Positions 8,714-46,155 of a stretch of DNA of 64,000 nt are shown here, piece by piece. Source of the stretch: Candidatus Rokuibacteriota bacterium (GTDB lineage Bacteria > Methylomirabilota > Methylomirabilia > Rokubacteriales > CSP1-6); the NCBI GenBank assembly GCA_016188005.1, contig JACPIQ010000051.1:1-64000 (forward strand). Reading direction: 5' to 3'. The first letter of the stretch is position 1. Each line of letters starts with the position of its first letter. The position numbers and the translations under genes are program-made. Below the pieces are notes generated by a model. That model had not been told where the DNA came from. It did not search any database and saw nothing but the letters and a program-made list of their open reading frames with translations.

Positions 8714-10072
8714 GTGACGCGCCGGCTGCTCTTCCGCGCCTTCGGCCTCACCTATGCCGCCGAGCGCTGGATCCGCCGGCGCTTCACCGGGGCCGGGCTC
8801 CTGGCGCTGGGGGCGGCGGCGGCCGCCGCCGTGGTCGGCCTGGACACGACCCGCACGCAGGCTTACCAGCTCTTCGCCTTCCTCGCGGCGCTCCTCGGCG
8901 TCGCCATGGCGGCGAGCCTCTCCTTCCGGGGCCGCTTCGCGGTGCGGCGGCTCCTGCCGCGCTTCGCCACGGCCGGAGAGCCGCTCGCCTACCGTGTCGC
9001 GATCCGCAACGAGACCGCGCGCGCGCAGCCCGGGCTCGCGCTCGTGGAGGAGACGGCCGATCCGCGCCCCGGCTTCCAGGAGCTCCTGCGCGCGCGCGAG
9101 CCGGGGGAGGAGCGGCGCAACTGGTTCGACCGCACCGTGGGCTACCCGCGCTGGATATGGCTCGTGCGGCGGAACCAGCGCGCCCGGATCCCCGAGGTGC
9201 CCGTGCCGGCGCTCTCGCCGCGCGGCGAAGGGGAGGCCAGGGTCGAGATCATTCCGCTCCGGCGCGGGCCGCTGCGGTTCACGGGGGTGACGCTGGCGCG
9301 CCCCGATCCTCTCGGCCTCTTCCGGGCGCGCGTCACGGTGCCGGCCCCGCAGTCGGTGCTGGTGCTGCCGCGCCGCTACCCCGTGCCGGCGCTCGCGCTA
9401 CCCGGGACGCGGAAGCACCAGCAGGGCGGCGTGGCGCTGGCCGCGTCGGTGGGAGACTCGGAGGAGTTCGTGTCGCTGCGCGACTACCGGCCCGGCGACC
9501 CGCTGCGGCGGATCCACTGGAAGAGCTGGGCGCGGGCCGGCCGGCCCGTGGTCAGGGAGTACCAGGACGAGTTCTTCGTCCGGCACGCGCTGGTGCTCGA
9601 CACCTTCACCGGTCCGGCGCCCGGCGCGCGCTTCGAGGAGGCGGTGTCCGTGGCCGCCTCCTTCGCCTGCGCGGCGCCCACGCAGGACGCCCTCCTGGAC
9701 CTCATGGTCGTGGGCGGGGAGGCGTACTGCTTCACGGCGGGGCGCGGCCTGGCCCATGCGGACCGCATGCTCGAGATCCTCGCCTGCGTGGAGCCGGCCA
9801 CGGCCGGCTCCTTCCGGGTGCTCCGCGACGCGGTGCTGGAGCGCCACGCCTCGCTCAGCGGCTGCGTCTGCGTGCTGCTCGCGTGGGACGAGGAGCGGCG
9901 TGACCTCGTGGGGCGCCTCGAGGCGCTGGCGATCCCGACCCTCGTCCTCGTGCTCGGCGACGGGGACGACCCCGCGCCGGACCGTGCGGCGCTCCCGGCC
10001 CGGCCGGCGGGTGCTGCGGCGGTCCACCGGCTCCAGGTGGGCCGCATCGCCGAGGGGCTCCGGCGGCTGTGA
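8714..10072 (+). CDS. DUF58 domain protein
   Basis: A 452-residue protein with two membrane segments near the N-terminus (about 27-72), a beta-rich middle region, and the DUF58 core with EEFVSLRDYRPGDPLRRIHW and KSWARAGRPVVREY (about 251-285). DUF58 proteins carry a vWA-like fold and are usual partners of MoxR ATPases; their biochemical role is not settled. The start is GTG at 8714. Its stop overlaps the GTG of the transglutaminase gene by four bases (GTGA), so translation is probably coupled. Confidence 0.88.
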   Translation: MTRRLLFRAFGLTYAAERWIRRRFTGAGLLALGAAAAAAVVGLDTTRTQAYQLFAFLAALLGVAMAASLSFRGRFAVRRLLPRFATAGEPLAYRVAIRNETARAQPGLALVEETADPRPGFQELLRAREPGEERRNWFDRTVGYPRWIWLVRRNQRARIPEVPVPALSPRGEGEARVEIIPLRRGPLRFTGVTLARPDPLGLFRARVTVPAPQSVLVLPRRYPVPALALPGTRKHQQGGVALAASVGDSEEFVSLRDYRPGDPLRRIHWKSWARAGRPVVREYQDEFFVRHALVLDTFTGPAPGARFEEAVSVAASFACAAPTQDALLDLMVVGGEAYCFTAGRGLAHADRMLEILACVEPATAGSFRVLRDAVLERHASLSGCVCVLLAWDEERRDLVGRLEALAIPTLVLVLGDGDDPAPDRAALPARPAGAAAVHRLQVGRIAEGLRRL

Positions 10073-12045
10073 GGACGCCCCGGCTGCTCGTCGGCGCCGC
10101 GCTTCTCTTCTGGGGGTGGCAGGTGGGTCTCCTGCTCCCGGCGGTGGCCGCCGCGCTGCTGCTCGAGGGCGCGCGCCTGGTCCGCTGGCGCTGGGAGCTG
10201 TCCCGGGGCGACTTCAACCGCGTGTCCGACCTGTCGAGCCTCGTCTTCGCGGGCATCGTCGTCTACCTCGGGGCCACGCGCGAGGCGCCGCGGGCGCTCA
10301 CCCTGCTCGTCCAGTGGCTCCCGCTCGTCCTGCTCCCGCTGCTGGCGGCCCAGGTCTACAGCACCGCCGGCGGGGTCGATCCGCGCATGTTCTTCTGGAG
10401 CCAGCGGAAGCGCGCGGAGGCGGACGGCGACGGGCAGCGCCGCCTCGTGGACCTCGGCTACCCGTATCTGGCGCTCGTGATCCTGGCGGCGAGCGCGGCC
10501 AATGTGGGGACCCGGGTCTTCTACGCGGGCCTCTGTGCCTCGGCCGCCTGGGCGCTGTGGGCGAACCGGCCGCGCTGGGCCTCGCCGGCCGGCTGGGCGG
10601 GACTCCTGCTGGCGGCAGTGGTGGGGGGCTGGGGCGGTCAGGTCGGGCTCCACTCCCTCCAGCGGGTCGTCGAGGCCACGGCCTTCGAGTGGGTGTCGGA
10701 GTGGATCCGCCGGGACACGGACCCGTTCCGGGCCAGCACCGCCATCGGCCAGCTCGGCACGCTGAAGCTCTCCGACCGGATCGTCCTGCGCGTCCTCCCC
10801 GAGGGCCCCGAGCCCCCGCCGCGGCTGCTCCGCGAGGCGACCTACAACATCTACAGCGCGCCGGCGTGGCTGGCCGTGGACCCGGGCTTCAGCCGGATCC
10901 ACTCCGAGGCCGACGGCACCACGTGGAAGCTCGGCCCGGCGGCGCCGGCGCCGCGCACCGTGACGATCGCGACCGCGCTCCGGCGAGGGCGCGGCGTGCT
11001 CGCCCTCCCCGGCGGCGCCTTCGAGATCCGGCGGCTCACCGTCGGGCGGCTGGAGCGCAACCGGCTCGGCGCGGTGAAGGTGGACGAGGGGCTGGGGCTC
11101 GTCACCTACACCGCGCTGGCAGGTGCCAGCGCGCCGCTCGATGACCCCCCGACCGACGCGGATCTCCTGATCACTCCGCGCGAGGTCCCCGTGTTCTCCT
11201 CCGTGGCCGCCCAGCTCGGGCTCCGCTCGCTCCCGCCGCCAGAGGCCGTGCGGGCCGTCGTGGACTTCTTCGCGCGGGGCTTCCGCTACTCGACCTATCG
11301 GCCCGGGCGCGAGCGGGAGGCGAGCCCCCTCGAGGAGTTCCTGCTGCGCTCCCGCGCGGGGCACTGCGAGTACTTCGCCACGGCCACCGTGCTCCTGCTC
11401 CGCGCGGGGGGCATCCCCACCCGCTACGTCACGGGCTTCGCCGTCGGGGAGTGGAGCGCCCTCGAGAAGGCCTACGTCCTGCGCCAGCGCCACGCCCACT
11501 CCTGGGCGCTGGCCTGGACGGGCGGGGCCTGGCGGGATGTGGACACGACGCCGGCGGTGTGGGCCGAGGAGGAGGCGGCGCAGGCCTCGTTCTGGCAACC
11601 GGCGGCTGATGTCTGGGCCTGGGGTATGTACCTCTTCTCGCGGTGGCGATATGGGGAGGGGCGGGAGGGCGTCGCCGGGTGGCTTGGCTGGCTCCTCGTG
11701 CCGCTCGTCTTGCTGCTGGCCTGGCGCATCTACTCGCGCAAGCGGGTCAGGCGCTTCCCGCCCGCGCCGACCCTGGCCTCGGCCCCGGCATCGCGGGCAG
11801 GGCAGGACTCGGAGTTCTACCTCATCGAGCAGCGGCTCGGACGGCTCGGGCTCGGACGCCAGGAGTGGGAGCCCCTGGCGCACTGGATCGAGCGCATCGG
11901 CCAGGCGCCCGAGATGAGCCGCGCGGCCGCGAGGCTCCCGCGCGTGCTGCGGCTGCACTATCGCTACCGCTTCGACCCCGCCGGGCTCTCCGCGGCGGAG
12001 CGGGAGCAGCTGCGCCACGACGTCACCGACTGGCTCGCCCAGTAG
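10069..12045 (+). CDS. Membrane transglutaminase-like protein (TgpA type)
   Basis: A 658-residue protein with several N-terminal membrane helices (to about residue 190), a large non-cytoplasmic region, a transglutaminase-like catalytic core and a further C-terminal membrane helix (about 545-562) followed by a cytoplasmic tail. The papain-like triad is visible: Cys in SRAGHCEYFATA (about 433), His in RQRHAHSWALAW (about 476) and Asp in WRDVDTTP (about 491). This is the usual third member of the MoxR-DUF58 cluster and is likely involved in envelope protein processing or cross-linking. A palindromic element begins at its stop codon. Confidence 0.9.
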   Translation: MRTPRLLVGAALLFWGWQVGLLLPAVAAALLLEGARLVRWRWELSRGDFNRVSDLSSLVFAGIVVYLGATREAPRALTLLVQWLPLVLLPLLAAQVYSTAGGVDPRMFFWSQRKRAEADGDGQRRLVDLGYPYLALVILAASAANVGTRVFYAGLCASAAWALWANRPRWASPAGWAGLLLAAVVGGWGGQVGLHSLQRVVEATAFEWVSEWIRRDTDPFRASTAIGQLGTLKLSDRIVLRVLPEGPEPPPRLLREATYNIYSAPAWLAVDPGFSRIHSEADGTTWKLGPAAPAPRTVTIATALRRGRGVLALPGGAFEIRRLTVGRLERNRLGAVKVDEGLGLVTYTALAGASAPLDDPPTDADLLITPREVPVFSSVAAQLGLRSLPPPEAVRAVVDFFARGFRYSTYRPGREREASPLEEFLLRSRAGHCEYFATATVLLLRAGGIPTRYVTGFAVGEWSALEKAYVLRQRHAHSWALAWTGGAWRDVDTTPAVWAEEEAAQASFWQPAADVWAWGMYLFSRWRYGEGREGVAGWLGWLLVPLVLLLAWRIYSRKRVRRFPPAPTLASAPASRAGQDSEFYLIEQRLGRLGLGRQEWEPLAHWIERIGQAPEMSRAAARLPRVLRLHYRYRFDPAGLSAAEREQLRHDVTDWLAQ

Positions 12046-12141
12046 GGGGTCAGGTCTTGCATTTCGACATTGGCAGGTGTCTCAGGGAGCGCAAGAGTGG
12101 TGGGGCCCCAGCTACGTGTCGGATTGCAAGACCTGACCCCA
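12045..12141. repeat. REPIN/MITE-like inverted repeat between convergent genes
   Basis: The arm GGGGTCAGGTCTTGCA at 12046-12061 recurs as its exact reverse complement at 12125-12140, separated by 63 bases. The similarity continues inward for about 8 more bases with a few mismatches (TCGACA against CCGACA). The element fills the gap between the transglutaminase gene (+) and the M20 peptidase gene (-) and supplies the last residues and the stop codon (12112-12114) of the latter. Size and paired-arm layout resemble REP doublets or small MITEs mobilised by Y1 transposases; this assignment is inference. Only one copy is seen here. Confidence 0.65.
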
Positions 12142-13585
12142 GGTGAGGCAGGTGAGGAGGGTGGCGGTGGTGCGGATGCCCTGGAAGAGGTGGTCGAGGC
12201 GAAGGTGCTCGTTGGGGCTGTGCTGGCGGTTGCTGGCATTGGCATAGGGCAGGACGAGGGTCGGCAGGCCGAGGAGATCGGTGAAGGCCCAGAGCGGTAC
12301 GCTGCCGCCGAGCGTCGGCAGGAGCACGGCCCGCTCGCCGCCGTGAGCCCGCTCCACCGCTGCGATCACTTCGCGGCAGATGGGCAGGTCCAGCGCCGTC
12401 TTCGCCGGATCGTAGCCCCCCTTTCCCACCACGCGGATGGCCCGCCCCCGGAGCGCGTCGGGCAGCGGTGTCTCCGCCCCCTCGATGACCTCGAAGCCCT
12501 GAGCCCGGATGTGCTCGACGAGGCGCCGGTACATCGTCTCCAGCCGCTGGTGCTTGGCCATGCGGACGTCGATGGACACCGAGGCGCGGTGCGGGACGAT
12601 GGTGTTGGCCTGCTTGCCGGTGAAGCCGCTGGCAAGCCCGCGGATGTTGAGCGTCGGATGGAACATGAGCCGCTCGAGGTAGTCCGCCGGCACGCGCACG
12701 CCGAGCTCGCGCTCGAGCGCGGGCCGGTCCACCGGGATCCGGGCCAGCATCTCCCGCTCGGCCGCCGAGGGCGGGGCCACCTCCGCCTCGAAGCCCTCGA
12801 TGAGCGGGGTGCCGTCCGGCGCCGCCATCGAGGCGAGCAGCCCGTTGAGCGCCCACGCCGGGTTCGGAACCACGAAGTTGCCCGAGTGGACATCGCGCCG
12901 CGCCGCCTCCAGCATGAGCTCGAGCGTCAGGACGCCGCGGGCGCCGCCGGAGACGGTGGGGCGGCCGCTGTCGTGCTTGGGCCCGTCGGTGACGAGGACG
13001 AGATCCGCCGCCAGGAGCTCCCGGTGCGCCTCGGTGAAGGGGCCGAAGCAGGGACTGCCGATCTCCTCCTCGCCGTCGAAGACGAACTTCACGTTCACCG
13101 CGGGCGCGATGCCGGAGGCGTCCATCAGCTCGAGGGCCCAGAGATGCGCCCAGATCGGCCCCTTGTCGTCGGAGGCCCCACGCGCGTAGAGGCGATACTG
13201 CCCGAGATCCTCGTCGGCGATGGCCGCGGGCGCGACCGTCGGCGCCCCTTCCTCGGCCAGTCCCCGGCGGAAGACGGGCTCGAGCGGCGAGGGCTGCAGC
13301 CACCCGTCCGGCGGCACCGGCTTCGTGTCGTAATGGCAGTAGAGGAGGAGCGTCCGGCGGGCGCCCGGGACGCGCCGCTCCCCGAAGACGGCGGGGTTGC
13401 CGCCGGTCTCGATGACGCGGGCCTCGAGGCCGCGGGCCTGCATGGCGGGCGAGCCACTCGCTGCAGGCGCGGACGCGCTCGCGCTCCTGGCTCACCGACT
13501 CCAGGCGGAGGAAGGGGATGAAGTCCCCGACGATGGCGCGGCGGCGCGAGGCCAGGAGCCGGTCGAACGCGGGCCAGTCAATCAT
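12112..13585 (-). CDS. M20-family zinc peptidase, interrupted by one frameshift
   Basis: A metallopeptidase of the M20/ArgE/DapE family, about 490 residues when repaired. The N-terminal 44 residues (MIDWPAFDRLLASRR to CSEWLAR) are read from an ATG at 13585; the rest, starting QARGLEARVIETGG, is in another frame that runs to 12112. Removing one C from the CCCGCCATG stretch near 13443-13446 joins them exactly, so this is a one-base insertion or consensus error. Zinc-site motifs are present: LLYCHYDTKPVP, SDDKGPIWAHLW and DGEEEIGSP. The final residues (WGQVLQSDT) come from the palindromic repeat. It is the last gene of the hutF-mqnA unit, 42 bases after the methyltransferase. Confidence 0.8.
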
Positions 13586-34267: not shown

Positions 34268-37200
34268 GTGGGGGGGCTGGGCGTGGACGGGCGGGTGGTG
34301 GCCGAGGCAGAGCGCTTCGATCCGGCAGCGCAGCGCTTCGAGGCGCTGACCTCCGCAGCGCCCACGCCGCGTGCGTATCACACCGCGACGCTTCTCACGG
34401 ATGGTCGGCTGCTCATCGTCGGCGGGATCGCGGAAGATGGAGTGCCGTCTAGTCCCGCCGAGACCTGGGACCCGCAGGCCGGCACGACGGAGACTGTCCG
34501 CGCCGGTCCCGCGGCGCCCCGCCTGGGCCACACGGCGATGCTCCTCCCGGACGGCAGCGTCCTGATCTCGGGTGGGGTCGATCGCGCCGGCGTCGCCCTC
34601 ACGCGAGGTGAGGTGTACGACGCGGGCGCCGGGCGCTTCGCTGCGATCGAGACGCCCCAGCAGCCAGCCGCGGTGCCGACGGCTGGCCCGCGCGTGGAGT
34701 TCTCGGTACCGTCTGACGGGGCCACGGACGTGCCCCTCGCGCCGCGCCTGGTGCTGCGCTTCTCGGTCCCCGCGCGGGTCGAGACGGTGACGAGCAAGAC
34801 GGTCACGCTGAGCGGCCCCGAGGGGCCCGAAGCCGTCACCGTGACGGCGGCCGAAGGCGGCATGCTGGTGTTCATCCGCCCGAACGCGCCGCTCCTGCCG
34901 GGCGCCACCTACACGCTGTCGCTGAACGGGACGGAGGACGGGCGCGGGCTCTCTCTGCCTTTCACGGCCGTCCAGTTCAGGACCCGGGAGGCGCCGGCGG
35001 GGCCCGAGAGGGCGGCCCGGGCGCCGGCGCCCGGGCCCGCGACCCACTCGGGGGCGGCTGACCCGGGGGCGAAGGGGGACGCGGAGGCCGCCGGCAACGC
35101 AGAGGACTGGGAGTGGAGGGGCGAGCGGCGGGACGGCCAGCCCTACTCTCGGTGGCAGGCTCTGCCACCGCTCCAGGCCCCGGCGGGGGTGACGGCGCTG
35201 GCCGGCCAAGTGCTCAAGCTCAACGGGGAGCCGCTGCCCGACGTCACGCTGCGCATCGGCGGGCGCAGCGTGCAGACGGATACGACGGGACGCTTCCTGC
35301 TCACCGACCTCCCCGCCGGCGGGCCGCTGATGGTCATCGACGGCTCCACGGCGAGCCGGCCGGGGCGCACCTACGCGCGGTTCATCCAGCACGTGGACCT
35401 CACGGCCGGCGTCACGACCGTGCTGCCGTATACCATCTGGCTGGCGCTCATCGACACGAAGCACGTGGTGCGGCTGCCCGTTCCGACGACGCGCGAGGTC
35501 GTCGTGACGACGCCTCGGGTGCCGGGGCTGGAGATGCGGATCCCGGCGGGCGTCGTCCTGCGCCACCGCACGGGCGAGGTGGTCAGGGAGGTGTCGCTGA
35601 CGCGCATCCCGACGGACCGACCGCCGTTCCCTCTGCCCAAGGGCACCGACTTCTTCTTCACCCCCGAACTACTCGGGGCGCACGTGGAGCGCCCGGACGG
35701 CACCGAGAGCCCTGTGGGGGTGCGCTTCGTGCTCCCCAACTACCAGGGCCTGGCTCCCGGCGTCCGGGTCGACCTCTGGGACTACCTGCCCGAGCACCGC
35801 TGGCGCGTGTCGGGCCAGGGCACGGTGCGGCGCGATGGCCGCCAGATCCTGCCCGACCCCGGCGTGGAGTACTTGCGTGTGGGCTGCATCTTCACCCTCG
35901 GGAGCGACGGCTTTGCGCCCACGATGGGGCCGATCCCGGGGGCCAAGCGGTGCTGCGACCCGGTGGATCCGGCCACGGGGCTGTTCGTGCTGGAGAAGAC
36001 CGACCTCATCGTGCCCGACGTGATCCCGATCGTGCTGATGCGGACGTACCGGCCCGGGGGGCTGACGCGGCAGTTTGGCGCCGGGGCCAACCACCCCTAC
36101 TTCATGTTCCTGGTGGGCGAGGCCGTGACCTACAGCTCGGCGGACCTGGTGCGGGCGGACGGCTCGAAGATCCACTACGTGCGGACCTCGCCAGGGACCG
36201 GGCAGACGGACGCCGTGATGGAGCACACGGCGACGCCGACGGCCTTCGACAAGTCCCAGTTGGCCTGGAACGCGACCCGGGCCGGCTGGGACATCACGCT
36301 GCGGGACGGCACGGTCTACGAGTTCGCGGGGGCGGCCCCGGCCCCGGGCCCCCCGCTGACCGGGATCCGGGACCGGTGGGGGAACCGCTTGACCATCGAA
36401 TACGCAGTGTCGCGGCAGATCAAGCGGATCACCACGCCGAGCTGGCGGTGGCTGGAGTTCACCTACACGACCACGGACCTGATCACCCAGGCCCGGGACC
36501 ACGCCGGGCGGGTGGTGAACTACGAGTACGACGGGTTCAATCGGCTGACCGCCGTGGTGGACGCGGGCGGGGGGCGGACGGAGTACACATGGGACCCGGG
36601 CGGCGCCGACCGGATGCTGACGCTGAAGGACGCCCGAGGGATCGTGTTCCTGACCAACGAGTATGACGCCGCGAACCGGGTCACCCGGCAGACGCAGGCG
36701 GACGGCACGAGCTACCAGCTCGCCTATACGCTGGACCTGGACGGCAAGATCGTGCAGACGGACATCACCAACCCCCGGGGCGACGTGCGGCGGCTGACGT
36801 TCAACGCCGCGGGCTACCCGCTGACCCACACCGCCGCTTCCGGCACCCCGCTGGCCCAGACGACGACGTACGTGCGGGACACCGCCAACCGGCCGACCTC
36901 CATCATCGACGCCCTGGGGCGGCAGACGGCCTACGCATACGACGCCCAGGGGAACCTCACGAGCCTCACCCGGCTGGCAGGGACGGGCGAGGCGGTGACG
37001 ACGGGCTTCACCTACGAGCCCCTCTTCAGCCAGGTGGCGAGCGTGACGGACCCGCTGGGCCACACGACGACGCTCGCCTACGACGCGGCGGGGAACCCGA
37101 CGACGATCACGAGCCCGCTGGGGGTGGCGACGACGCTGACCTGGACGGCGGCGGGGCAGCCGCTGACGATCACGACGCCGGCGGGGACGACCCAGCTCGG

Positions 37201-39199
37201 CTACGACCTCGGGGACCTGGTCACGATCACCGACCCGCTCGGGCGCATCACCACGCGCTTCACGGATCTCGCCGGCCGGCTGGTGAGCGTCACGGACTCC
37301 CGGGGCGGCCAGACCCGCTATGCCTATGATGCCCTGAACCGGCTGACGAGCCTGACCGACGCCCTGGGCGGGGTGACGCAGTTCAGCTACGACCCGAACG
37401 GCAACCTCCTCGCCGTGACCGACGCCCGGGGGAGCGTCACCGGGTACAGCTACGACAGCATGGACCGGGTGGCGACGCGGACGGACCCGCTCCTCCGGGT
37501 GGAGAGCTACCAGTACGATCTCGCCGGCAACCTGACCCAGGTGACGGACCGGAAGGGCCAGGTCACAACGGTCAGCTACGATGCCCTGAATCGCCGCACA
37601 AGCGCGACCTACGCCGACGCCTCGACGACGAGCTACGGCTACGATGCGGGCAACCGGCTGCGGACGGTGACGGACTCCCTCGCGGGCACGCTCACCCTCA
37701 CCTACGACACCCTTGACCGCCTGACCCAGGAGGTCTCCCCCCAGGGGACGGTCGCCTACAGCTACGACGCCGCCAGCCGACGGAGCAGCATGACCCTCCC
37801 GGGCCAGCCGGTCGTGACCTACGGCTACGATGCCGCCGACCGGTTGCTGCAGATCGCGAAGGGCAGCGCGGCGGTCACCTTCGGCTACGATGCCGCGGAC
37901 CGGCGGACGCTGCTGACCTTGCCCAACGGGGTGACGACGGAGTACACGTATGATGTGGCCTCCCAGCTCACCGGGCTGACCTACAAGCAGGGGGCGGCGA
38001 CGCTCGGCGTCCTCACCTACGCCTACGACCCCGCCGGGAACCGCACCCAGGCGAGCGGGAGCTGGGCGCGGACGGGGCTGCCGGACCCCATCACCTCGGC
38101 CAGCTACAACGCCGCGAACCATCAGCTCGCCCTGGGCGGCCGGGCGATGACCTACGACTTGGCGGGGAACCTCCTCACCCTGGCGGAGCCCACGGGCACG
38201 ACGAGCTTCACCTGGGACGCGCGCAACCAACTCAGCGCCCTGACGACGCCGGACGGGACGGCGAGCTTCCTCTACGACGGCCTGGGGCGCCGCCGGGCGA
38301 AGATCCTCAACGGCACGCGGACCGACTACCTCTACGATGGGTTGACGCCGGTGCAGGAGCTGCCCGTGGGAAGCGCGGCCGCCACCCTCCTCACGGGGCT
38401 GGGGATCGACGAGTACTTCACGCGGACGACGGGCGCCACGACGCGCACGCTCCTGACCGACGCCCTGGGCTCGACTGTCGCCCTCACCGACGCCACGGGG
38501 GCCCTTCAGGCCGAGTACACCTATGAGCCCTTCGGGGCGACCACGGAGACCGGCGCCGACAGCAATCCCTTCCAGTACACGGGGCGGGAGCAGGACGCGG
38601 GCACGGGGCTCTACTCCTACCGGGCCCGCTATTACCACCCGGGGCTCCAGCGGTTCGTGAGCGAAGACCCGATCGGGTTTGCGGGGGGAGATGTCAACTT
38701 CTACGCCTACGTCCGTAACAATCCGCTTCTCTGGATAGATCCTTGGGGCCTCAGATATACGGTTGAGCAGTTGGCGGCCATCATTTACAACGAGACCGCG
38801 GGTTACGAGGACGGGGGCCAGTGCAGCCTTTACGGAGCTCGGACCGCCATCGGCAACGTGGCCGTGAATCGTGAGGCAGTCGGCATGCTTGGCGGTATCG
38901 CACCCGCGAGCCTCGGCGTCCAGGAGGAGCGGAACATCCGGGGTGGACATCCGCGGGCTGGCGCGGCCTACGCACAAGCGCTCAGTGTGGCCGCTGCCGT
39001 CCTAGCCGGACGGAAGGATGAGGAGCAGAACTTGGTGGACCCCACCCGTGGGGCACTACACTTCATTTTCGACTATGGCCAGGGTCTACCGCGATGGGCT
39101 CGAGTCGCACCACGTCTCATGTTCGGACCGTGCATCAACCGCGGAGGCGGCGGTGATGTCCCCCGCAATGTTCCTACTCTGATCAAGGTGGTTCCGTGA
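34268..39199 (+). CDS. RHS/YD-repeat polymorphic toxin 1 with SleB-like peptidoglycan hydrolase tip
   Basis: A 1643-residue frame; the signal peptide lies upstream in another frame. Order: Kelch repeats (about 1-130), SbsA-like Ig domain (about 140-240), carboxypeptidase-regulatory-like domain (about 312-380), DUF6531 start of the Rhs shell (PVDPATGLFVLEKTD, about 570), many YD repeats (about 700-1450), and the core end YRARYYHPGLQRFVSEDP with DPWGL at about 1495. The last 148 residues are the toxin tip: LAAIIYNETAGYEDG, AIGNVAVNRE and TRGALHF resemble SleB-type cell wall hydrolases, with the Glu of IIYNE as likely catalytic residue. Lower GC in the tip suggests exchange. An exported putative immunity gene overlaps its stop. 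Confidence 0.85.
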   Translation: MGGLGVDGRVVAEAERFDPAAQRFEALTSAAPTPRAYHTATLLTDGRLLIVGGIAEDGVPSSPAETWDPQAGTTETVRAGPAAPRLGHTAMLLPDGSVLISGGVDRAGVALTRGEVYDAGAGRFAAIETPQQPAAVPTAGPRVEFSVPSDGATDVPLAPRLVLRFSVPARVETVTSKTVTLSGPEGPEAVTVTAAEGGMLVFIRPNAPLLPGATYTLSLNGTEDGRGLSLPFTAVQFRTREAPAGPERAARAPAPGPATHSGAADPGAKGDAEAAGNAEDWEWRGERRDGQPYSRWQALPPLQAPAGVTALAGQVLKLNGEPLPDVTLRIGGRSVQTDTTGRFLLTDLPAGGPLMVIDGSTASRPGRTYARFIQHVDLTAGVTTVLPYTIWLALIDTKHVVRLPVPTTREVVVTTPRVPGLEMRIPAGVVLRHRTGEVVREVSLTRIPTDRPPFPLPKGTDFFFTPELLGAHVERPDGTESPVGVRFVLPNYQGLAPGVRVDLWDYLPEHRWRVSGQGTVRRDGRQILPDPGVEYLRVGCIFTLGSDGFAPTMGPIPGAKRCCDPVDPATGLFVLEKTDLIVPDVIPIVLMRTYRPGGLTRQFGAGANHPYFMFLVGEAVTYSSADLVRADGSKIHYVRTSPGTGQTDAVMEHTATPTAFDKSQLAWNATRAGWDITLRDGTVYEFAGAAPAPGPPLTGIRDRWGNRLTIEYAVSRQIKRITTPSWRWLEFTYTTTDLITQARDHAGRVVNYEYDGFNRLTAVVDAGGGRTEYTWDPGGADRMLTLKDARGIVFLTNEYDAANRVTRQTQADGTSYQLAYTLDLDGKIVQTDITNPRGDVRRLTFNAAGYPLTHTAASGTPLAQTTTYVRDTANRPTSIIDALGRQTAYAYDAQGNLTSLTRLAGTGEAVTTGFTYEPLFSQVASVTDPLGHTTTLAYDAAGNPTTITSPLGVATTLTWTAAGQPLTITTPAGTTQLGYDLGDLVTITDPLGRITTRFTDLAGRLVSVTDSRGGQTRYAYDALNRLTSLTDALGGVTQFSYDPNGNLLAVTDARGSVTGYSYDSMDRVATRTDPLLRVESYQYDLAGNLTQVTDRKGQVTTVSYDALNRRTSATYADASTTSYGYDAGNRLRTVTDSLAGTLTLTYDTLDRLTQEVSPQGTVAYSYDAASRRSSMTLPGQPVVTYGYDAADRLLQIAKGSAAVTFGYDAADRRTLLTLPNGVTTEYTYDVASQLTGLTYKQGAATLGVLTYAYDPAGNRTQASGSWARTGLPDPITSASYNAANHQLALGGRAMTYDLAGNLLTLAEPTGTTSFTWDARNQLSALTTPDGTASFLYDGLGRRRAKILNGTRTDYLYDGLTPVQELPVGSAAATLLTGLGIDEYFTRTTGATTRTLLTDALGSTVALTDATGALQAEYTYEPFGATTETGADSNPFQYTGREQDAGTGLYSYRARYYHPGLQRFVSEDPIGFAGGDVNFYAYVRNNPLLWIDPWGLRYTVEQLAAIIYNETAGYEDGGQCSLYGARTAIGNVAVNREAVGMLGGIAPASLGVQEERNIRGGHPRAGAAYAQALSVAAAVLAGRKDEEQNLVDPTRGALHFIFDYGQGLPRWARVAPRLMFGPCINRGGGGDVPRNVPTLIKVVP
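36911..38682 (+). repeat. rhs core direct repeat, copy 1
   Basis: This 1772-base core matches copy 2 (41483-43254) with no net insertion or deletion, and its last 1492 bases (37191-38682) match copy 3 (44174-45665) in the same way. Most differences I noticed are scattered substitutions, many silent. Confidence 0.85.
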
Positions 39200-39882
39200 G
39201 GGTCGTCGGAGACGGGTCTTGGCGCGGCGGGATCGGCTCACGCTCCGGCAATGCGATTGTTGCCCTTGCCGCGATGGTCACGATTGTGTTGGCGCCGGAC
39301 GGGGCAGCGGCCGCGGCCGAGCAAGGGAGGGTCGCAGCGCTATCGACGAGAGAACTTGTGGACTGTCTTAGATCCGACGCTCACTGCAGGATCGAGGAGT
39401 GGGTGATTCGTGAGGAGATGTCGCGCAGGAAGGAAGTTGCCCTCTTGACTTCCGCGTACGTGACGAGCACCGACGAGGTCCAGAAGGATCGGCTGGCTGA
39501 GGTGCTTTTTGAGATCGATGACCTTGAGGTCTCCCGGTTCATGCGGGCACTGATGACGCCAGAGGCGACTCTACGCGGCTATTACGCGGCGCAGTACCTG
39601 GCACAACGTGGGGACCGTCGCGCGCTGTCGATCATGAACCAGAACTATTTCAAGTATCCGGTGTCGTCTGCAGCGTGGGCGTCAACCGTCCAGCTGTTCG
39701 GCAAGTACCGATATCGCCCTGCGATCAGCCACCTTATCGAGTCCATCGACGCGGCGTCGGTGAACGTTGCTGCAGCCGCTGTGGAGAGCCTTCAACTGCT
39801 GTTCCCTGGTTCGCCATCGGAATTCAAGTCAGCCGCAGAGGCGAAGAAGTACTTTCGGGAGCGAGTAGGGCGACAACCTTAA
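39196..39882 (+). CDS. Exported HEAT-like protein, candidate immunity to toxin tip 1
   Basis: A 228-residue protein whose GTG overlaps the rhs1 stop by four bases (GTGA). It has a signal peptide (about 18-42: AIVALAAMVTIVLAPDGAAAAA). The mature part has helical, HEAT-like pairs (LRGYYAAQYLAQRGDRRALSI, FGKYRYRPAISHLIESID, VNVAAAAVESLQLL). Export matches a periplasmic target such as peptidoglycan, which is what the SleB-like tip would attack. The immunity role is inferred from position, coupling and matching compartment. Base composition is less GC-rich than the rhs core. Confidence 0.7.
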   Translation: MRVVGDGSWRGGIGSRSGNAIVALAAMVTIVLAPDGAAAAAEQGRVAALSTRELVDCLRSDAHCRIEEWVIREEMSRRKEVALLTSAYVTSTDEVQKDRLAEVLFEIDDLEVSRFMRALMTPEATLRGYYAAQYLAQRGDRRALSIMNQNYFKYPVSSAAWASTVQLFGKYRYRPAISHLIESIDAASVNVAAAAVESLQLLFPGSPSEFKSAAEAKKYFRERVGRQP

Positions 39883-39901
39883 GACGGGGCCGCAGGAGCT
39901 C

Positions 39902-42900
39902 GTGATCGACGGCCGGAGCGCGAGCGGGCCGGGGCGGAGGTACGGGGTGTTCGAGGTCGGGGTCGTGATCACGGCCGGCCAGACCATCGGGCTCGGCTAC
40001 ACGGTCTGGATGCCGCGGATCGACACGGCGCATGCGGTGACGATCCCGACGCAGACGGCGACGGCGCTGGTGATCACGACCCCGCGCATCCCGGGGCTGG
40101 AGCTGCGGCTGCCGGCGCACAGCAGCATCCGGGATCACGAGGGCGCCCCGGCCACCGAGATCAGCACCACGCCGATCCCGCAGGACCGGCCGCCGTTCCC
40201 GCTCCCGCAGGGGTCGGCGCCGCCGGCGTACTTCACGATCCAGCCGGGGGCGGGGTACATCTCCAATCCCGACTATGCGGGGGCGCAGCTGGTCTATCCG
40301 AACCGGCAGCAGGCGCGGGCGGGGACGCGCTTCGAGTTCTGCCAGTACGATCCGAGGGGGCGGGGCTGGCACGTGTACGGCCACGGCACGGTGATGGAGG
40401 ACGGCCGCCAGATCGTGCCCGACCCGAAGGTGGCGATCTACGAGTTCACGGGGGCGATGGCGGCGGACCCGGGGCTGGGTTACGCTCCGGCGCTGGCGGG
40501 GGCGAGGCTCTCCGGGGGGGACCCGGTGGATCTGGCCACGGGGCTGTTCGTGCTGCGGAAGACGGACCTGGTCGTGCCGGACCTCATCCCGATCGTGCTG
40601 ACGCGCACGTACCGCCCCGGGGATGGCCAGTCGCGGGCCTTCGGGTTCGGGATGAGCCACTCCTACGACATGTTCCTGGTGGGGGACGTCAATCCCTACA
40701 CCTACCTGGACCTGTTCCTCCCGGACGGGACGCGGATTCATTTCGCGCGCATCTCGCCGGGGGGGAGCTGGCCGGACGCGGTCTACGAGCACACGGCCAC
40801 CCCGACCCGGTTCCACAAGGCGCGCATCGTCTGGAACGAGAGCCATGTCGGCTGGGACCTCACGCTGAAGGACGGCACGCTGTACCAGTTCCCGGAAGCC
40901 AACGGGGCGCCACGCCCCCAGTGGGCGGCACTCAAGGGGTACCGGGACCGGTACGGCAACGCCCTGACGCTGACCCGCGACAGCAACCGCGACCTCACGC
41001 GGCTGACCACGCCGAGCGGCCGGTGGGTGGCGCTGACGGTGGACGCCAGCCACCGGATCACCCAGGCGCAGGACAATACTGGCCGCACCGTCAGCTACAC
41101 CTACGACGCCGGGGGGCGGCTCAGCACGGTGACGGACGCGGCGGGCGGGGTGACGACCTACGGCTACGATGCCTCGAACCGGATGACGACGATCACGGAT
41201 GCGCGCGGCATCGCCTACCTGACCAACGAGTACGACGCCACGGGCAAGGTGATCCGGCAGAGCCAGCCCGGGGGGATCGTGCACCAGCTCGCCTACACGC
41301 TGGGCCCCGGGGGCATCGTCACCCAGACCGACGTCACCGATCCGCGGGGCGGGATCGAGCGGGCCGCCTTCAACGACGCGGGCTACCCCGTGAGCGACAC
41401 GCGCGCGCTGGGCGCGCCGGAGCAGCAGGCGACCAGCTACGAGTGGCAGGCGGCGACGAACCTGCTCCTGGCCCAAACCGACGCCCTGGGGCGGCGGACG
41501 GCCTACGCCTACGACACCAACGCCAACCTCAGCAGCCTCACCCGGCTGGCGGGGACCGGCGACGCGGTGACGACGGGCTTCAGCTACGAGCCCCTCTTCA
41601 GCCAGGTGGCGAGCGTGACCGACCCGCTGGGCCACACGACGACGCTCGCCTACGACGCGGCGGGCAACCCGACGACGATCACGACCCCGCTGGGGGTGGC
41701 GACGACGCTGACCTATACGGCGGCGGGGCAGCCGCTGACGATCACGACGCCGGCGGGGACGACCCAGCTCGGCTACGACGGAGGCGACCTCGTCTCGATC
41801 ACCGACCCGCTGGGGCGGACGACGACGCGTTTCACCGACAGTGCCGGGCGGCTGGTCAGCGTCACCGACCCTCGGGGCAGCCAGACCCGCTACGCCTACG
41901 ACGCGCTGAACCGGCTGACGAGCCTCACCGACGCCCTGGGCGGGGTGACGCAGTTCGGCTACGACCCGAACGGCAACCTCCTCACCCTGACCGACGCCCG
42001 GGGGAGCGTGACCGGCTACAGCTACGACGCCATGGACCGGGTGGCGACCCGCAGCGACCCGCTCCTCCGGGTCGAGAGCTACCAGTACGACCTGGCCGGC
42101 AACCTGACCCAGGTGACGGACCGGAAGAGCCAGGTCACGACGGTCAGCTACGATGTCCTGAACCGCCGCACAGGGGCGACCTATGCCGACGCCTCGACGA
42201 CCACCTACGGCTACGACGCGGGCAATCGCCTCCGCACGGTGACGGACTCCCTGGCCGGCACCCTCACCCTCACCTACGACACCCTCGACCGCCTGACCCA
42301 GGAGGTGAGCGCCCAGGGCACCGTGAGCTACGGCTACGATGCGGCGGGGCGGCGGACCAGCCTGGGCATCCTGGGGCAGCCGGCCGTGACCTACGGCTAT
42401 GACGCCGCCGACCGGTTGCTGCAGATCACGAAGGGGAGCGCGCTGGTCGCCTTCGGCTACGACGCGGCGGACCGGCGGACGCTCCTGACCTTGCCCAACG
42501 GCGTGACGACGGAGTACACGTATGACGTGGCCTCCCAGCTCACGGGGCTGACGTACAAGAAGGGCGCGGCGACGCTCGGCGCCCTCACATACGCCTACGA
42601 CGCCGCCGGGAACCGCACCCAGGCGAGCGGGAGCTGGGCCCGGACGGGGTTGCCCGACCCCATCACCTCGGCCAGCTACAATGCGGCGAACCACCAGCTC
42701 GCCCTGGGCGGCCGGGCGATGACCTACGACCTGGCGGGGAACCTGCTCACCCTGGCGGAGCCGACGGGGACGACGACCTTCACCTGGGACGCCCGCAACC
42801 AGCTCTCGGCGATGACGACGCCGGACGGGACGGCAAGCTTCCTCTACGACGGCCTGGGCCGGCGCCGCGCCAAGATCCTCAGCGGCACCCGGACGGACTA

Positions 42901-43729
42901 CCTCTACGACGGGCTGACGCCGGTGCAGGAGCTGGCGGGCGCCACGGTCACCGCGAATCTCCTCACGGGCCTCGGCATCGACGAGTACTTCACGCGGACG
43001 ACCGGCACCACGACGCGCACGCTCCTGACTGACGCCCTGGGTTCGACTGTCGCCCTCACCGACGACACCGGCGCCCTTCAGGCCGAGTACACGTACGAGC
43101 CCTTCGGGGCCACCACGGAGACGGGCGTCGACAGCAATCCGTTCCAGTACACGGGGCGGGAGCTCGACGCGGGGACGGGGCTCTACTACTACCGCGCCCG
43201 CTATTACCACCCGGGGCTCCAGCGGTTCATCAGCGAGGATCCGATCGAGTTTGCCGGTGGCGACATGAATCTGTATGCCTACGTGTTCAACGATCCGGTC
43301 AACGCCGCCGATCCGAGTGGGACCGTGCGTATCGAAACGCCCCCACTGCTTGCGTCTATGTGTCGGGGTGATCTCCTGCCGGGTCTCGGCGGCCGGAAGG
43401 ATCCCTCAATATTGGAGCGTGTTGTTGGCTTTGCCCGTGATCTGGTCGGCGATTCTGCCTGCGATCCGAACAACCTGCTGCCCGGGCCGGGAATGGTAAC
43501 AGGGCCCACGAAGGGCATGCTGAAGGCGTTTGGCAACCAACTCGCGAAGCACGGCAGAGGATCGCTGGGAAAATCGCTCGCGACTCTGGAAAGGCGGCTG
43601 GCCGAACATCTCGGGAAGCTTGCAGACATCGAGAAGGCCGGAGAGCCCCCGGGTTCAGTTCAACGAGAGATCCGAAACTTTCAGGCGCAGATCGCAGCGC
43701 TTAGGAAGATATTGGAGAACCTACAGTGA
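39902..43729 (+). CDS. RHS polymorphic toxin 2, 5'-truncated (orphan) with unknown helical tip
   Basis: A 1275-residue frame that starts abruptly inside the domain equivalent to about residue 357 of rhs1 (LVIDGRSASGPGRRYGVFEV); signal peptide, Kelch and Ig domains are absent. It has DUF6531 (DPVDLATGLFVLRKTDLV, about 207), the full YD core and the core end YRARYYHPGLQRFISEDP. The tip after DPSG (about 1138-1275) is new: a short linker, then charged amphipathic helices (SLATLERRLAEHLGKLADIEK, RNFQAQIAALRKILENL). I do not recognise its activity. With no own start signals it may be silent until recombined into a full-length gene. Confidence 0.8.
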   Translation: MIDGRSASGPGRRYGVFEVGVVITAGQTIGLGYTVWMPRIDTAHAVTIPTQTATALVITTPRIPGLELRLPAHSSIRDHEGAPATEISTTPIPQDRPPFPLPQGSAPPAYFTIQPGAGYISNPDYAGAQLVYPNRQQARAGTRFEFCQYDPRGRGWHVYGHGTVMEDGRQIVPDPKVAIYEFTGAMAADPGLGYAPALAGARLSGGDPVDLATGLFVLRKTDLVVPDLIPIVLTRTYRPGDGQSRAFGFGMSHSYDMFLVGDVNPYTYLDLFLPDGTRIHFARISPGGSWPDAVYEHTATPTRFHKARIVWNESHVGWDLTLKDGTLYQFPEANGAPRPQWAALKGYRDRYGNALTLTRDSNRDLTRLTTPSGRWVALTVDASHRITQAQDNTGRTVSYTYDAGGRLSTVTDAAGGVTTYGYDASNRMTTITDARGIAYLTNEYDATGKVIRQSQPGGIVHQLAYTLGPGGIVTQTDVTDPRGGIERAAFNDAGYPVSDTRALGAPEQQATSYEWQAATNLLLAQTDALGRRTAYAYDTNANLSSLTRLAGTGDAVTTGFSYEPLFSQVASVTDPLGHTTTLAYDAAGNPTTITTPLGVATTLTYTAAGQPLTITTPAGTTQLGYDGGDLVSITDPLGRTTTRFTDSAGRLVSVTDPRGSQTRYAYDALNRLTSLTDALGGVTQFGYDPNGNLLTLTDARGSVTGYSYDAMDRVATRSDPLLRVESYQYDLAGNLTQVTDRKSQVTTVSYDVLNRRTGATYADASTTTYGYDAGNRLRTVTDSLAGTLTLTYDTLDRLTQEVSAQGTVSYGYDAAGRRTSLGILGQPAVTYGYDAADRLLQITKGSALVAFGYDAADRRTLLTLPNGVTTEYTYDVASQLTGLTYKKGAATLGALTYAYDAAGNRTQASGSWARTGLPDPITSASYNAANHQLALGGRAMTYDLAGNLLTLAEPTGTTTFTWDARNQLSAMTTPDGTASFLYDGLGRRRAKILSGTRTDYLYDGLTPVQELAGATVTANLLTGLGIDEYFTRTTGTTTRTLLTDALGSTVALTDDTGALQAEYTYEPFGATTETGVDSNPFQYTGRELDAGTGLYYYRARYYHPGLQRFISEDPIEFAGGDMNLYAYVFNDPVNAADPSGTVRIETPPLLASMCRGDLLPGLGGRKDPSILERVVGFARDLVGDSACDPNNLLPGPGMVTGPTKGMLKAFGNQLAKHGRGSLGKSLATLERRLAEHLGKLADIEKAGEPPGSVQREIRNFQAQIAALRKILENLQ
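41483..43254 (+). repeat. rhs core direct repeat, copy 2
   Basis: Equivalent to 36911-38682 at a constant offset of 4572 bases. The match breaks down right after the SEDPI core end, where the tip sequences diverge. Confidence 0.85.
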
Positions 43730-44043
43730 CGACACGTCGACTCCTGGGAACGGCGGCGGATATCGTAGCGCTCGGAGAGCGTCTTTCACGGTCAGCAGAG
43801 GTGACCAAGTTCGATGAAGGCGAGCACCGGGAGGCATGGGCGCTCGCGCATGCCTTTGCGGATTTGGAGGAATCATTCGACAAGTTCCTTAACGAGCAAC
43901 TTCCCCGACTGGTGCAAGATTCACCTGACGTGGCAGAGATTCCCGATGTGCTGCTTGAGATCGGAGAAGAGTTTCGCCACATTCTTTACCACCTGCGGGA
44001 CCCCAAATTCTACAGCTACCTCGACGACAGGGCCGATTCCTGA
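43726..44043 (+). CDS. Small acidic cytoplasmic protein, candidate immunity to toxin tip 2
   Basis: A 105-residue protein starting at a GTG that overlaps the rhs2 stop by four bases (GTGA). It is helical and strongly acidic (AFADLEESFDKFLNEQLPRL, DVAEIPDVLLEIGEEFRHIL), with no signal peptide or membrane helix. An acidic cytoplasmic partner suits a basic toxin acting on nucleic acid or another cytoplasmic target. No family is recognised; the role is inferred from position. Confidence 0.65.
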   Translation: MTTRRLLGTAADIVALGERLSRSAEVTKFDEGEHREAWALAHAFADLEESFDKFLNEQLPRLVQDSPDVAEIPDVLLEIGEEFRHILYHLRDPKFYSYLDDRADS

Positions 44044-44045
44044 GC

Positions 44046-44189
44046 GTGGTCGAAGCGGCGGACTGCGTGATGGTCAATGGAGCCAAGATCGAGCGCGAGT
44101 TCTTCGAAGAGAGTGGCGCTGAGACGAGGGCCTACACGTTGATACATGGCGGCCCAGGAGACCAAGTGGGCGGCCCAGCTTGGCCATGA
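44046..44189 (+). pseudogene. Short coding remnant cut by the rhs3 junction
   Basis: From a GTG at 44046 a 47-codon frame reads VVEAADCVMVNGAKIEREFF and continues EESGAETRAYTLIHG before running into rhs core sequence in the wrong frame at about 44174. The first 40 codons look like real protein sequence and may be the tail of a lost immunity or toxin gene whose remainder was replaced by rhs3. No family is recognised. Confidence 0.35.
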
Positions 44190-46155
44190 CCTCGGGGACC
44201 TGGTCACGATCACGGACCCGCTGGGGCGGACGACGACGCGCTTCACCGACAGCGCCGGGCGGCTGGTCAGCGTCACCGACCCCCGGGGCAGCCAGACCCG
44301 CTACGCCTACGACCCCCTGAACCGGCTGACGAGCCTGACCGACGCCCTGGGCGGGGTGACCCAGTTCGGCTACGACCCGAACGGCAACCTCCTCTCGGTG
44401 ACCGACGCCCGGGGGAGCGTCACCGGCTACACCTACGACGCGATGGACCGGGTGGCGACGCGGACGGACCCGCTCCTGCGCACGGAGAGCTACCAGTACG
44501 ATCTCGCCGGGAACCTCACCCAGGTGACGGACCGGCAGGGGCAGGTCAGGACGTTCAGCTACGATGCCCTGCACCGCCGCACAAGCGCGACCTACGCCGA
44601 CGCCTCGACGACCACCTACGGCTACGACGCGGGCAATCGCCTCCGCACCGTGACGGACTCGCTGGCCGGCACCCTCACCCTCACCTACGCCACCCTGGAC
44701 CGCCTGACCCAGGAGGTCTCCCCCCAGGGGACGGTCGCCTACAGCTACGACGCCGCGGGGCGGCGGACCAGCATGAGCCTCCCGGGGCTGCCCGCGGTCA
44801 CCTACGGTTACGATGCCGCGGACCGGCTGCTGCAGATCACGAAGGGGAGCGCTCTCGTCACCTTCGGCTACGACGCGGCAGATCGGCGGACGCTGCTGAC
44901 CTTGCCCAACGGGGTGAGGGCGGAGTACACGTATGACGTGGCCTCCCAGCTCACGGGGCTGACGTACAAGCAGGGGGCGGCGACGCTCGGCGCCCTCACC
45001 TACGCCTACGACCCCGCCGGGAACCGCACCCAGGCGAGCGGGAGCTGGGCCCGGACGGGGTTGCCCGATCCCGTCGCCTCGGCCAGCTACAATGCGGCGA
45101 ACCATCAGCTCGCCCTGGGCGGCCGGGCGATGACCTACGACCTGGCGGGGAACCTGCTGAGCCTGGCGGAGCCGACGGGCACGACGGCCTTCACCTGGGA
45201 CGCCCGCAACCAGCTCTCGGCGATGACGACGCCGGACGGGACGGCCAGCTTCCTCTACGACGGCCTAGGCCGCCGGCGCGCCAAGATCCTCAACGGGACG
45301 CGGACGGGCTACCTCTACGACGGCCTGACCCCGGTGCAGGAGCTGTCGGGCGCCTCGGTGACGGCGACGCTCCTGACCGGCCTCGGGATCGACGAGTACT
45401 TCACGCGGACGACGGGCGCGACGACGCGCACGCTCCTGACCGACGCCCTGGGCTCGACTGTCGCCCTCACCGACGACACCGGGGCCCTTCAGGCCGAATA
45501 CACGTACGAGCCCTTCGGCGCCAGCACGGAGACGGGTGCCGACGGCAATCCCTTCCAGTACACGGGGCGGGAGCACGACGCGGGCACGGGCCTCTACTCC
45601 TACCGGGCGCGCTACTACCACCCGCAACTCGGGCGGTTTATCAGCGAGGATCCGCTCGGCTTTGCCGGAGGTGGCCCGAACCGTTACGCCTACGTCCGAA
45701 ATAATCCGTTGCGCTTCACTGACCCGCTCGGCCTCCTCAACATCATCGCGGGCGCTGGTGGGAGCGTGGTCGGCGCCAGTGGCGCCGAGGCGAGCGGCGG
45801 CTTCTTCTTCAACCCCGGCGGTGGGAGTCAGACGCTCGACGCCGGTCTCTTCGGGTCGGCCGGTATCGGCACTGGCGTCAACGTGAGCGGCGATGTGTTC
45901 GCCGGGTTCATCTTTGGCGGCGTGGACAACATCTCGGGGGTGACGGCCAATCTCAACATCGGCCTTGGTCCCTTCAGTCTCACTTTGCTCTACAACAATG
46001 CGGGATTCGGCGGGCTTACATTGGGCGCAGGCCCCAGCGCCCTGCCTGTGGGCGGCTCAGCGACCGCATCCGTCACAGGTACATGCTCGTTCTTCACGCT
46101 CATCAAGTCGTTTAGTTGCACGCCACCACCGCCGCGCAGCAAGAGCAGCCAGTGA
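44146..46155 (+). CDS. RHS polymorphic toxin 3, short orphan core with glycine-rich tip
   Basis: A 669-residue frame. rhs homology begins at about 44174 (QLGHDLGDLVTITDPLG), so only the last 500 residues of the core are present; the ATG at 44146 seems fortuitous. After the core end YRARYYHPQLGRFISEDP and DPLGL (about 530) comes a 135-residue tip rich in Gly, Ser and hydrophobic strands (IIAGAGGSVVGASGAEASGG, FAGFIFGGVDNISGVTANLN). It looks beta-rich and possibly membrane-active. The activity is unknown. The stop overlaps the membrane-protein gene that follows. Confidence 0.78.
   Translation: MAAQETKWAAQLGHDLGDLVTITDPLGRTTTRFTDSAGRLVSVTDPRGSQTRYAYDPLNRLTSLTDALGGVTQFGYDPNGNLLSVTDARGSVTGYTYDAMDRVATRTDPLLRTESYQYDLAGNLTQVTDRQGQVRTFSYDALHRRTSATYADASTTTYGYDAGNRLRTVTDSLAGTLTLTYATLDRLTQEVSPQGTVAYSYDAAGRRTSMSLPGLPAVTYGYDAADRLLQITKGSALVTFGYDAADRRTLLTLPNGVRAEYTYDVASQLTGLTYKQGAATLGALTYAYDPAGNRTQASGSWARTGLPDPVASASYNAANHQLALGGRAMTYDLAGNLLSLAEPTGTTAFTWDARNQLSAMTTPDGTASFLYDGLGRRRAKILNGTRTGYLYDGLTPVQELSGASVTATLLTGLGIDEYFTRTTGATTRTLLTDALGSTVALTDDTGALQAEYTYEPFGASTETGADGNPFQYTGREHDAGTGLYSYRARYYHPQLGRFISEDPLGFAGGGPNRYAYVRNNPLRFTDPLGLLNIIAGAGGSVVGASGAEASGGFFFNPGGGSQTLDAGLFGSAGIGTGVNVSGDVFAGFIFGGVDNISGVTANLNIGLGPFSLTLLYNNAGFGGLTLGAGPSALPVGGSATASVTGTCSFFTLIKSFSCTPPPPRSKSSQ
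44174..45665 (+). repeat. rhs core direct repeat, copy 3 (partial)
   Basis: Matches 37191-38682 at a constant offset of 6983 bases without net gap. The left end at 44174 is a sharp homology junction inside the core and marks a recombination point. Confidence 0.85.

Follow-up and report, generated by a model that had tools for sequence, protein, structure and literature searches.

At one junction of the 64,000-nucleotide stretch of Candidatus Rokuibacteriota DNA analysed here (the window), a gene for an M20 peptidase and a convergent transglutaminase-like gene meet at a short palindrome, and the peptidase reads its stop codon from inside it. This raises the questions of what the palindrome is, where it came from and why it sits at the very end of a gene. 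On comparison of its sequence with related genomes, the window palindrome is probably a small jumping gene reduced to a stripped-down remnant. With a probability of roughly 0.85 we explain it as a non-autonomous miniature of a TIRtron, an element in which a HUH/Y1 tyrosine transposase (RAYT-like, of the TIRYT class, subclass 2.1) would be framed by inverted arms beginning GGGGTCAGGTCTTGC. The size of the family, its paired architecture, four arm-framed transposases, a relic and three altered C termini support this explanation. The features of the junction are as follows.

12046..12140, no strand: whole palindromic doublet, 95 bp (arm match and fold)
12046..12069, plus strand: left arm, 16 bases of which are the family core and 24 nt with the extension, fitting GGGGWSAS (GGGGTCAG)
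12117..12140, minus strand: right arm, inverted (arm match)
12112..12141, minus strand: area of the last nine M20 codons and the TAG stop, WGQVLQSDT-stop (sequence and orthologues)
12043..12045, plus strand: TAG that ends the transglutaminase-like gene, immediately adjacent to the element
12112..13443, minus strand: M20 peptidase, frame open within the window, 443 aa (ORF and Pfam)
10069..12045, plus strand: convergent transglutaminase-like ORF, 658 aa (ORF and Pfam)

The arms contain exact 16-base inverted copies (12046–12061, plus; 12125–12140, minus), and the imperfect similarity that an earlier note on this DNA had seen beyond them brings the match to 24 nt at 92% identity (12046–12069 with 12117–12140). 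That note had placed the palindrome between convergent genes, as it is (transglutaminase-like on the plus strand, M20 on the minus), and had drawn its span, 12045–12141, one base too wide on each side. Both arms start with GGGGTCAG, in keeping with the consensus GGGGWSAS (PMC3733652), and the 14-base core GGTCAGGTCTTGCA occurs exactly twice within the 64-kb window, both times in the 12046–12140 element. Folded as single-stranded DNA, 12036–12150 reaches −30 kcal/mol against −16.95 for shuffled sequences (s.d. 2.69, z −4.85), the two arms being predicted to pair with each other. The M20 frame ends ...LLTCLT-W-GQVLQSDT-stop (TTATLLTCLTWGQVLQSDT), with its TAG at 12112–12114, 29 nt into the element; the arm gives two bases of the W codon and only the first lies outside. 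The peptidase does take its last nine residues and its stop from the palindrome, as had been proposed, the first of the nine being shared with the gene.

The element belongs to a large family. Its own genome (G000; 5.37 Mb in 140 contigs, completeness 98.12%, contamination 4.67%) holds the 16-base arm at 126 places with at most one mismatch (60 plus, 66 minus; reversed-pattern control, 0), so that the 16-mer, whose count the earlier note had offered as a check, is not single copy. A census of the loci around 100 of the 126 arm places, all 100 exact and with further arms accepted at up to two mismatches, gave 66 elements or single arms: 50 inward-facing pairs, measuring 49–187 bp, with 16 arms standing singly (12 on the minus strand, 4 on the plus). 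Many pairs are about 140 bp long with mutually similar interiors by eye, and the window copy looks like this type with an internal deletion. High copy number, intergenic placement and inverted doublets are all seen in the arm family. The exact 14-mer core is present in 17 of 60 genomes, the own one included; more than 50 arm places were counted in G002 (79), G004 (92), G008 (61) and G020 (55), and lesser numbers in G029 (11), G021 (10), G022 (7), G001 (5), G033 (2), G032 (1) and G011 (0). At L041 (G000:C63) several single arms (3538, 4587, 7744 and 9497) have similar neighbouring sequence of about 200 nt by eye, also showing as repeat-driven matches in a comparison of sites, perhaps a longer kind of miniature.

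The change to the peptidase can be read from its orthologues. A search of 57 family genomes for the M20 protein gave matches in 35; leaving aside L103 (contig cut), L111 (unread bases) and the distant L112–L116 (no motif match), all eight readable orthologues (L102, L104–L110) have no arm, carry the motif DLG and stop 0–5 residues after it. They thus end otherwise than the window protein, and the remodelling of a C terminus by the palindrome, claimed from the window alone, is real for M20 and recurs in two further genes. A sodium/solute symporter and an amidase were each sought in 57 genomes and the best 12 loci read. With the element, the symporter ends ...GGQVLHSNT in G000 and ...GGQVLHSDT in G002, and the ends differ in all ten of those loci that have no arm; the amidase tails ...GSGLAFQHR and ...GAGLALRHR are absent from 10/10 loci without an arm, one of which (L375) runs off before a stop. 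Tails such as GQVLQSDT, GVRS and GSGLA.. recur on unrelated genes. GQVL.S.T-type tails with a stop 29 nt in are found on seven G000 genes, and the near-identical tails (GQVLQSDT and close variants) on unrelated genes arise because that arm frame meets TAG 29 nt in. Two symporter copies, 88% alike, both end in the element (G000:C117:24398-25882, L056; G000:C2:2-481, L069); this could reflect a paralogue or a foreign contig in the bin (contamination 4.67%).

At the window junction itself, the doublet would have landed on the 3′ end of M20, next to the transglutaminase TAG; the body of M20 would have been kept and its original last codons and stop lost, the frame now running 29 nt into the right arm to TAG. 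The convergent transglutaminase-like neighbour is conserved in G002, with flanks 93% and 86% identical. The G002 junction lacks the arm and carries a different inverted-repeat element, and the transglutaminase frame runs a short way into that element before it stops. The same junction thus has a different palindrome in each of two sister species, closing the M20 frame in the window and the opposite, transglutaminase-like frame in G002, and no palindrome-free version of it was available; a clean empty site for the window copy was not found, that of G002 being occupied. The occupant (G002:C236; L102, L132) represents a second dispersed palindrome family, with arm core GGGCCCTCCCCGCGGAAC and arms mostly 101 nt apart, found with up to two mismatches at 31, 8 and 29 places in G000, G001 and G002 (reversed control 2, 3 and 3). 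The N terminus of the window M20 seemingly lies in another frame (window 13430–13585; ORF 12050–13585, minus), a likely frame shift relative to G002, where the open frame is 504 aa, whether genuine or an assembly error.

Proximity to stop codons extends across the family. Genes were called by codon usage, trained on the window (seven seed genes) and the fetched loci, and accepted at a score of at least 40. The stop lies inside the element at 18/63 gene 3′ ends in G000 (one by 2 nt only, one in the relic described below), 13/52 in G002, 3/35 in G004, 2/27 in G008 and 1/33 in G020; further TAGs are completed or touched by the element's first base (9, 5, 1, 1 and 1, respectively). Where the stop is outside, it falls within 8 nt at 105 of 156 gene 3′ ends over the five genomes, about 16 being expected under uniform placement. 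By genome the counts are 27/36, 29/34, 22/31, 13/24 and 14/31, against 3.1, 2.5, 4.2, 2.6 and 3.7 expected, in the same order, from placement in element-free spacers, samples of which are small for G004, G020 and G008 (23–40). Among paired elements only, 91 of 137 such stops are within 8 nt of the element. Two sites are readable in G001, with the stop at the same position and no element; at these two the stop is therefore older than the element. The proximity could reflect target choice, selection or both.

One account is survival: insertion would occur anywhere, and copies at gene ends would be those tolerated. We consider the odds on it to be even. The genomes are dense, and three genes have tolerated changed tails. 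A preference for TAG is also not general. Among stops within 8 nt, the TAG share is in excess in G004 (15/22, p 0.017) and weakly in G000 (13/27, p 0.049), both uncorrected, and no excess appears in G020 (8/14, p 0.16), G002 (9/29) or G008 (2/13), on which ground a family-wide TAG target was rejected. Yet when spacers are limited to those of 30 bp or less, 91 of 119 stops still lie within 8 nt of the element, against 63.7 expected (p 2e-7), an excess that is smaller but persists; its p-value, like others across these genomes, is too small because G000 and G002 share many sites, here counted twice, and the genome sets are not independent. The flanks, moreover, vary by genome, as expected of enzyme-specific targets. 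Before the GGGG foot, G004 has A at −5 in 24 of 46 ends, G at −4 in 25 and C at −1 in 29, with TAG exactly 3 nt before the element in 12/46; G020 has C at −1 in 39/54, and G008 A at −2 in 24/49. In G000, TAG stands at offset 0 in 7 of 114 ends and split by the boundary (TA, then G) in 13, making 20/114 at the junction. Such flanks would be expected if each transposase had its own short target, as in IS200/IS605, a pattern inseparable here from tolerance of sites. Because of the flank motifs (G004, G020, G000), the stop proximity in five genomes and the recurring tails, we put forward, tentatively and as somewhat improbable, that TIRYT transposases pick a short, lineage-specific motif that stop codons often satisfy, the miniatures homing onto gene ends and becoming a source of new C-terminal tails.

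Alternatively, the doublets may be kept because they benefit the host, for example as 3′-end mRNA hairpins between convergent genes, which we regard as unlikely. The fold of the window element as RNA is strong (z −5.67), and such a hairpin would be entered by both convergent transcripts; in 42 convergent pairs with an element the median residual spacer is 9.5 bp, compared with 60 bp in the 67 pairs that have none. Sites are shared as well: a loose test, in which repeat-driven matches also count, finds 41 of 66 in both G000 and G002. Against this, the window hairpin is followed by no T-run in the sequence, presence among relatives is patchy and interiors differ freely. In 21 site-matched pairs of our own choice from the 41, identical bases number 664/672 in the arms, 2841/3180 in the flanks and 870/1099 in interiors of near-equal length, from which we draw no conclusion on maintenance of the arms because an arm match was the means of retrieving the elements and the two genomes differ at several junctions.

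A Y1_Tnp profile (PF01797) gave no match in the own genome (140 contigs, 98.12% complete) at E ≤ 0.001. Of the 60 genomes, a set that includes the own one, 25 have a match: once or twice each in G002, G004, G008 and G020, and once in G022. In G004, G008, G020 and G022 two arms, one plus and one minus, enclose the Y1 gene at a distance of 0.93–1.0 kb from each other (one framing arm with one mismatch in G020; the downstream arm of G022 belongs to a short doublet), and in G002 the contig ends inside the transposase gene, with an arm on the opposite side. The G004 (L086) and G020 (L088) transposase frames take their own stop codons from the downstream arm. The NCBIfam model for REP-associated tyrosine transposases scores above its cut-off in G004 and below it in G008 and G022; for a C-terminal HTH, Pfam HTH_23 is above cut-off in L085, below in L086 and without a match in L088. 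The link between arms and enzyme is not strict. Arms occur with no Y1_Tnp match at all in G021 (10 places), G029 (11) and G033 (2); the Y1 gene of G001 scores far higher against Y1_Tnp (133 bits) but its locus contains no arm, and partial matches in G011 and G032 go with 0 and 1 arm places.

The own genome has, in place of a whole gene, an arm-framed, internally deleted transposase relic (L065:8107-8516). It runs from an arm into the start of the transposase, skips to the C-terminal end, which is in a different frame and has a stop, and closes with an arm; 224 nt are 91% identical to the G002 transposase gene and its upstream part. In G002 the left flank runs on without an arm, while the right flank is matched on a different contig, next to an arm element, so G002 does not offer a clean empty site. 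In our reading, the relic represents a stage intermediate between the transposon and the doublet. The Y1 (RAYT) gene flanked by the repeat that the earlier note had suggested looking for thus exists in four relatives and, at home, as the relic only. Internal deletion of a TIRtron would leave two arms and a spacer; the doublets would be mobilized in trans by an arm-framed transposase, probably moving as single-stranded DNA cut by the Y1 tyrosine, as in IS200/IS605 and TnpAREP.

The association reaches far beyond this lineage. A search of the genome collection with the G004 transposase gave 423 relatives, of which 80 were kept, and 58 of the 80 have inverted repeats at both ends (score at least 13; shuffled control 4/240; for one locus, L265, the gene end was set 146 bases short in the scan). 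The core GGTCAGGTC, with at most one mismatch, is present in 50 of these 58, and GGGGWSAS upstream with its complement downstream in 51/80. Judged by record title, the 50 core-bearing relatives represent about a dozen phylum-level groups, examples being Neomarinimicrobiota, Nitrospirae, Omnitrophota, Deltaproteobacteria, Aminicenantes, Aerophobetes, Acetothermia, Nitrospinota, Uhrbacteria, Elusimicrobia, Acidobacteria, Anaerolineae and Chlorobiaceae.

The earlier note had called the palindrome REP-doublet-like and mobile. A dispersed, transposase-linked palindrome family is supported; the REP label is not. A true REP doublet (REPIN), belonging to the GTAG class and mobilized by a group 2 or 3 RAYT, would likewise be dispersed between genes as inverted doublets, with a RAYT-like transposase framed by inverted copies, and the accessible parts of PMC2817692, PMC8266576 and PMC3116915 describe intergenic inverted doublets and a framed transposase gene of this kind. 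REPs, however, fold singly and carry a GTAG- or GTGG-type head. Three single arms have no hairpin of their own (z 0.48, 0.14 and −1.47), the arm starts with GGGGTCAGG between variable flanks, the GTAG or GTGG head missing, and it fits instead the TIR consensus GGGGWSAS as given in the parts available of PMC3733652 and PMC6006769. Because these defining features are missing from the arms, we rejected REP membership, and consider a REPIN very improbable. That the element is a MITE of a DDE-transposase insertion sequence, its ends shared with Y1 genes by chance, would suit its small size and terminal inverted repeats but is hardly credible, as Y1 transposases are framed by these ends in four relatives and, with the shared core, in 50 of the 80 distant ones, and no regular, fixed-length target duplication is visible by eye in the listed flanks. 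A TA duplication was considered; by eye, TA stands on both sides in only a few elements.

The reading as a TIRtron miniature places the window element in a known but little-studied kind. In the accessible text of Di Nocera et al. 2013 (PMC3733652), TIRtrons are RAYT-like genes framed by terminal repeats, several of which fit GGGGWSAS, and the TIRs are also dispersed as dimers, as here in the relatives with framed genes and in the doublets. Quentin et al. 2018 (PMC6006769), in the sections available, place 20 of 26 such TIRYT enzymes in TnpAREP subclass 2.1, with C-terminal HTH parts (HTH_23, HTH_28 or Bac_DnaA_C), equate the subclass with most TIRYTs and cite the consensus GGGG[AT][CG]A[CG]. 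The present Y1 enzymes resemble that subclass in their GGGGWSAS ends, a putative assignment made by repeats and descriptions; an HTH reached the Pfam cut-off in one of three enzymes scanned. The family differs from the TIRtrons of PMC3733652, as far as its accessible part goes, in its high copy number in a lineage not mentioned there, its strong stop-codon bias, the deleted transposase relic between arms and a longer shared core, GGGGTCAGGTCTTG.

Supply of a stop by a palindrome is known in kind, because GTAG REP termini are already reported, in the part of PMC3733652 available, often to give TAG stop codons to flanking ORFs; similarly, inverted REPs frame RAYT genes and in many cases sit immediately at the stop codon (Nunvar et al. 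2010, PMC2817692, accessible part). The spread of RAYT-type repeats is described as poorly understood (PMC8266576, accessible part). No report of stop-proximal TIR doublets was found in the literature searched, whose reach leaves most subscription papers outside, and the 13 bases GGTCAGGTCTTGC, sought in literature text, matched two papers, both about donkey casein genes. The positional bias to stops is striking and worth following. Among relatives, an arm-framed transposase, an arm-framed deleted one and stripped doublets coexist, which points to a possible path by which a gene becomes a miniature, and the same end sequence beside transposases in many phyla offers a single, defined DNA substrate for tests. 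If stop proximity is target choice, the elements would supply new protein tails repeatedly and predictably.

Elsewhere in the window, at 34268–46155, three long, similar ORFs carry YGYDA-like repeat units, with 300-nt blocks 87–90% identical between copies; by eye, we take these to have an Rhs/YD-repeat look.
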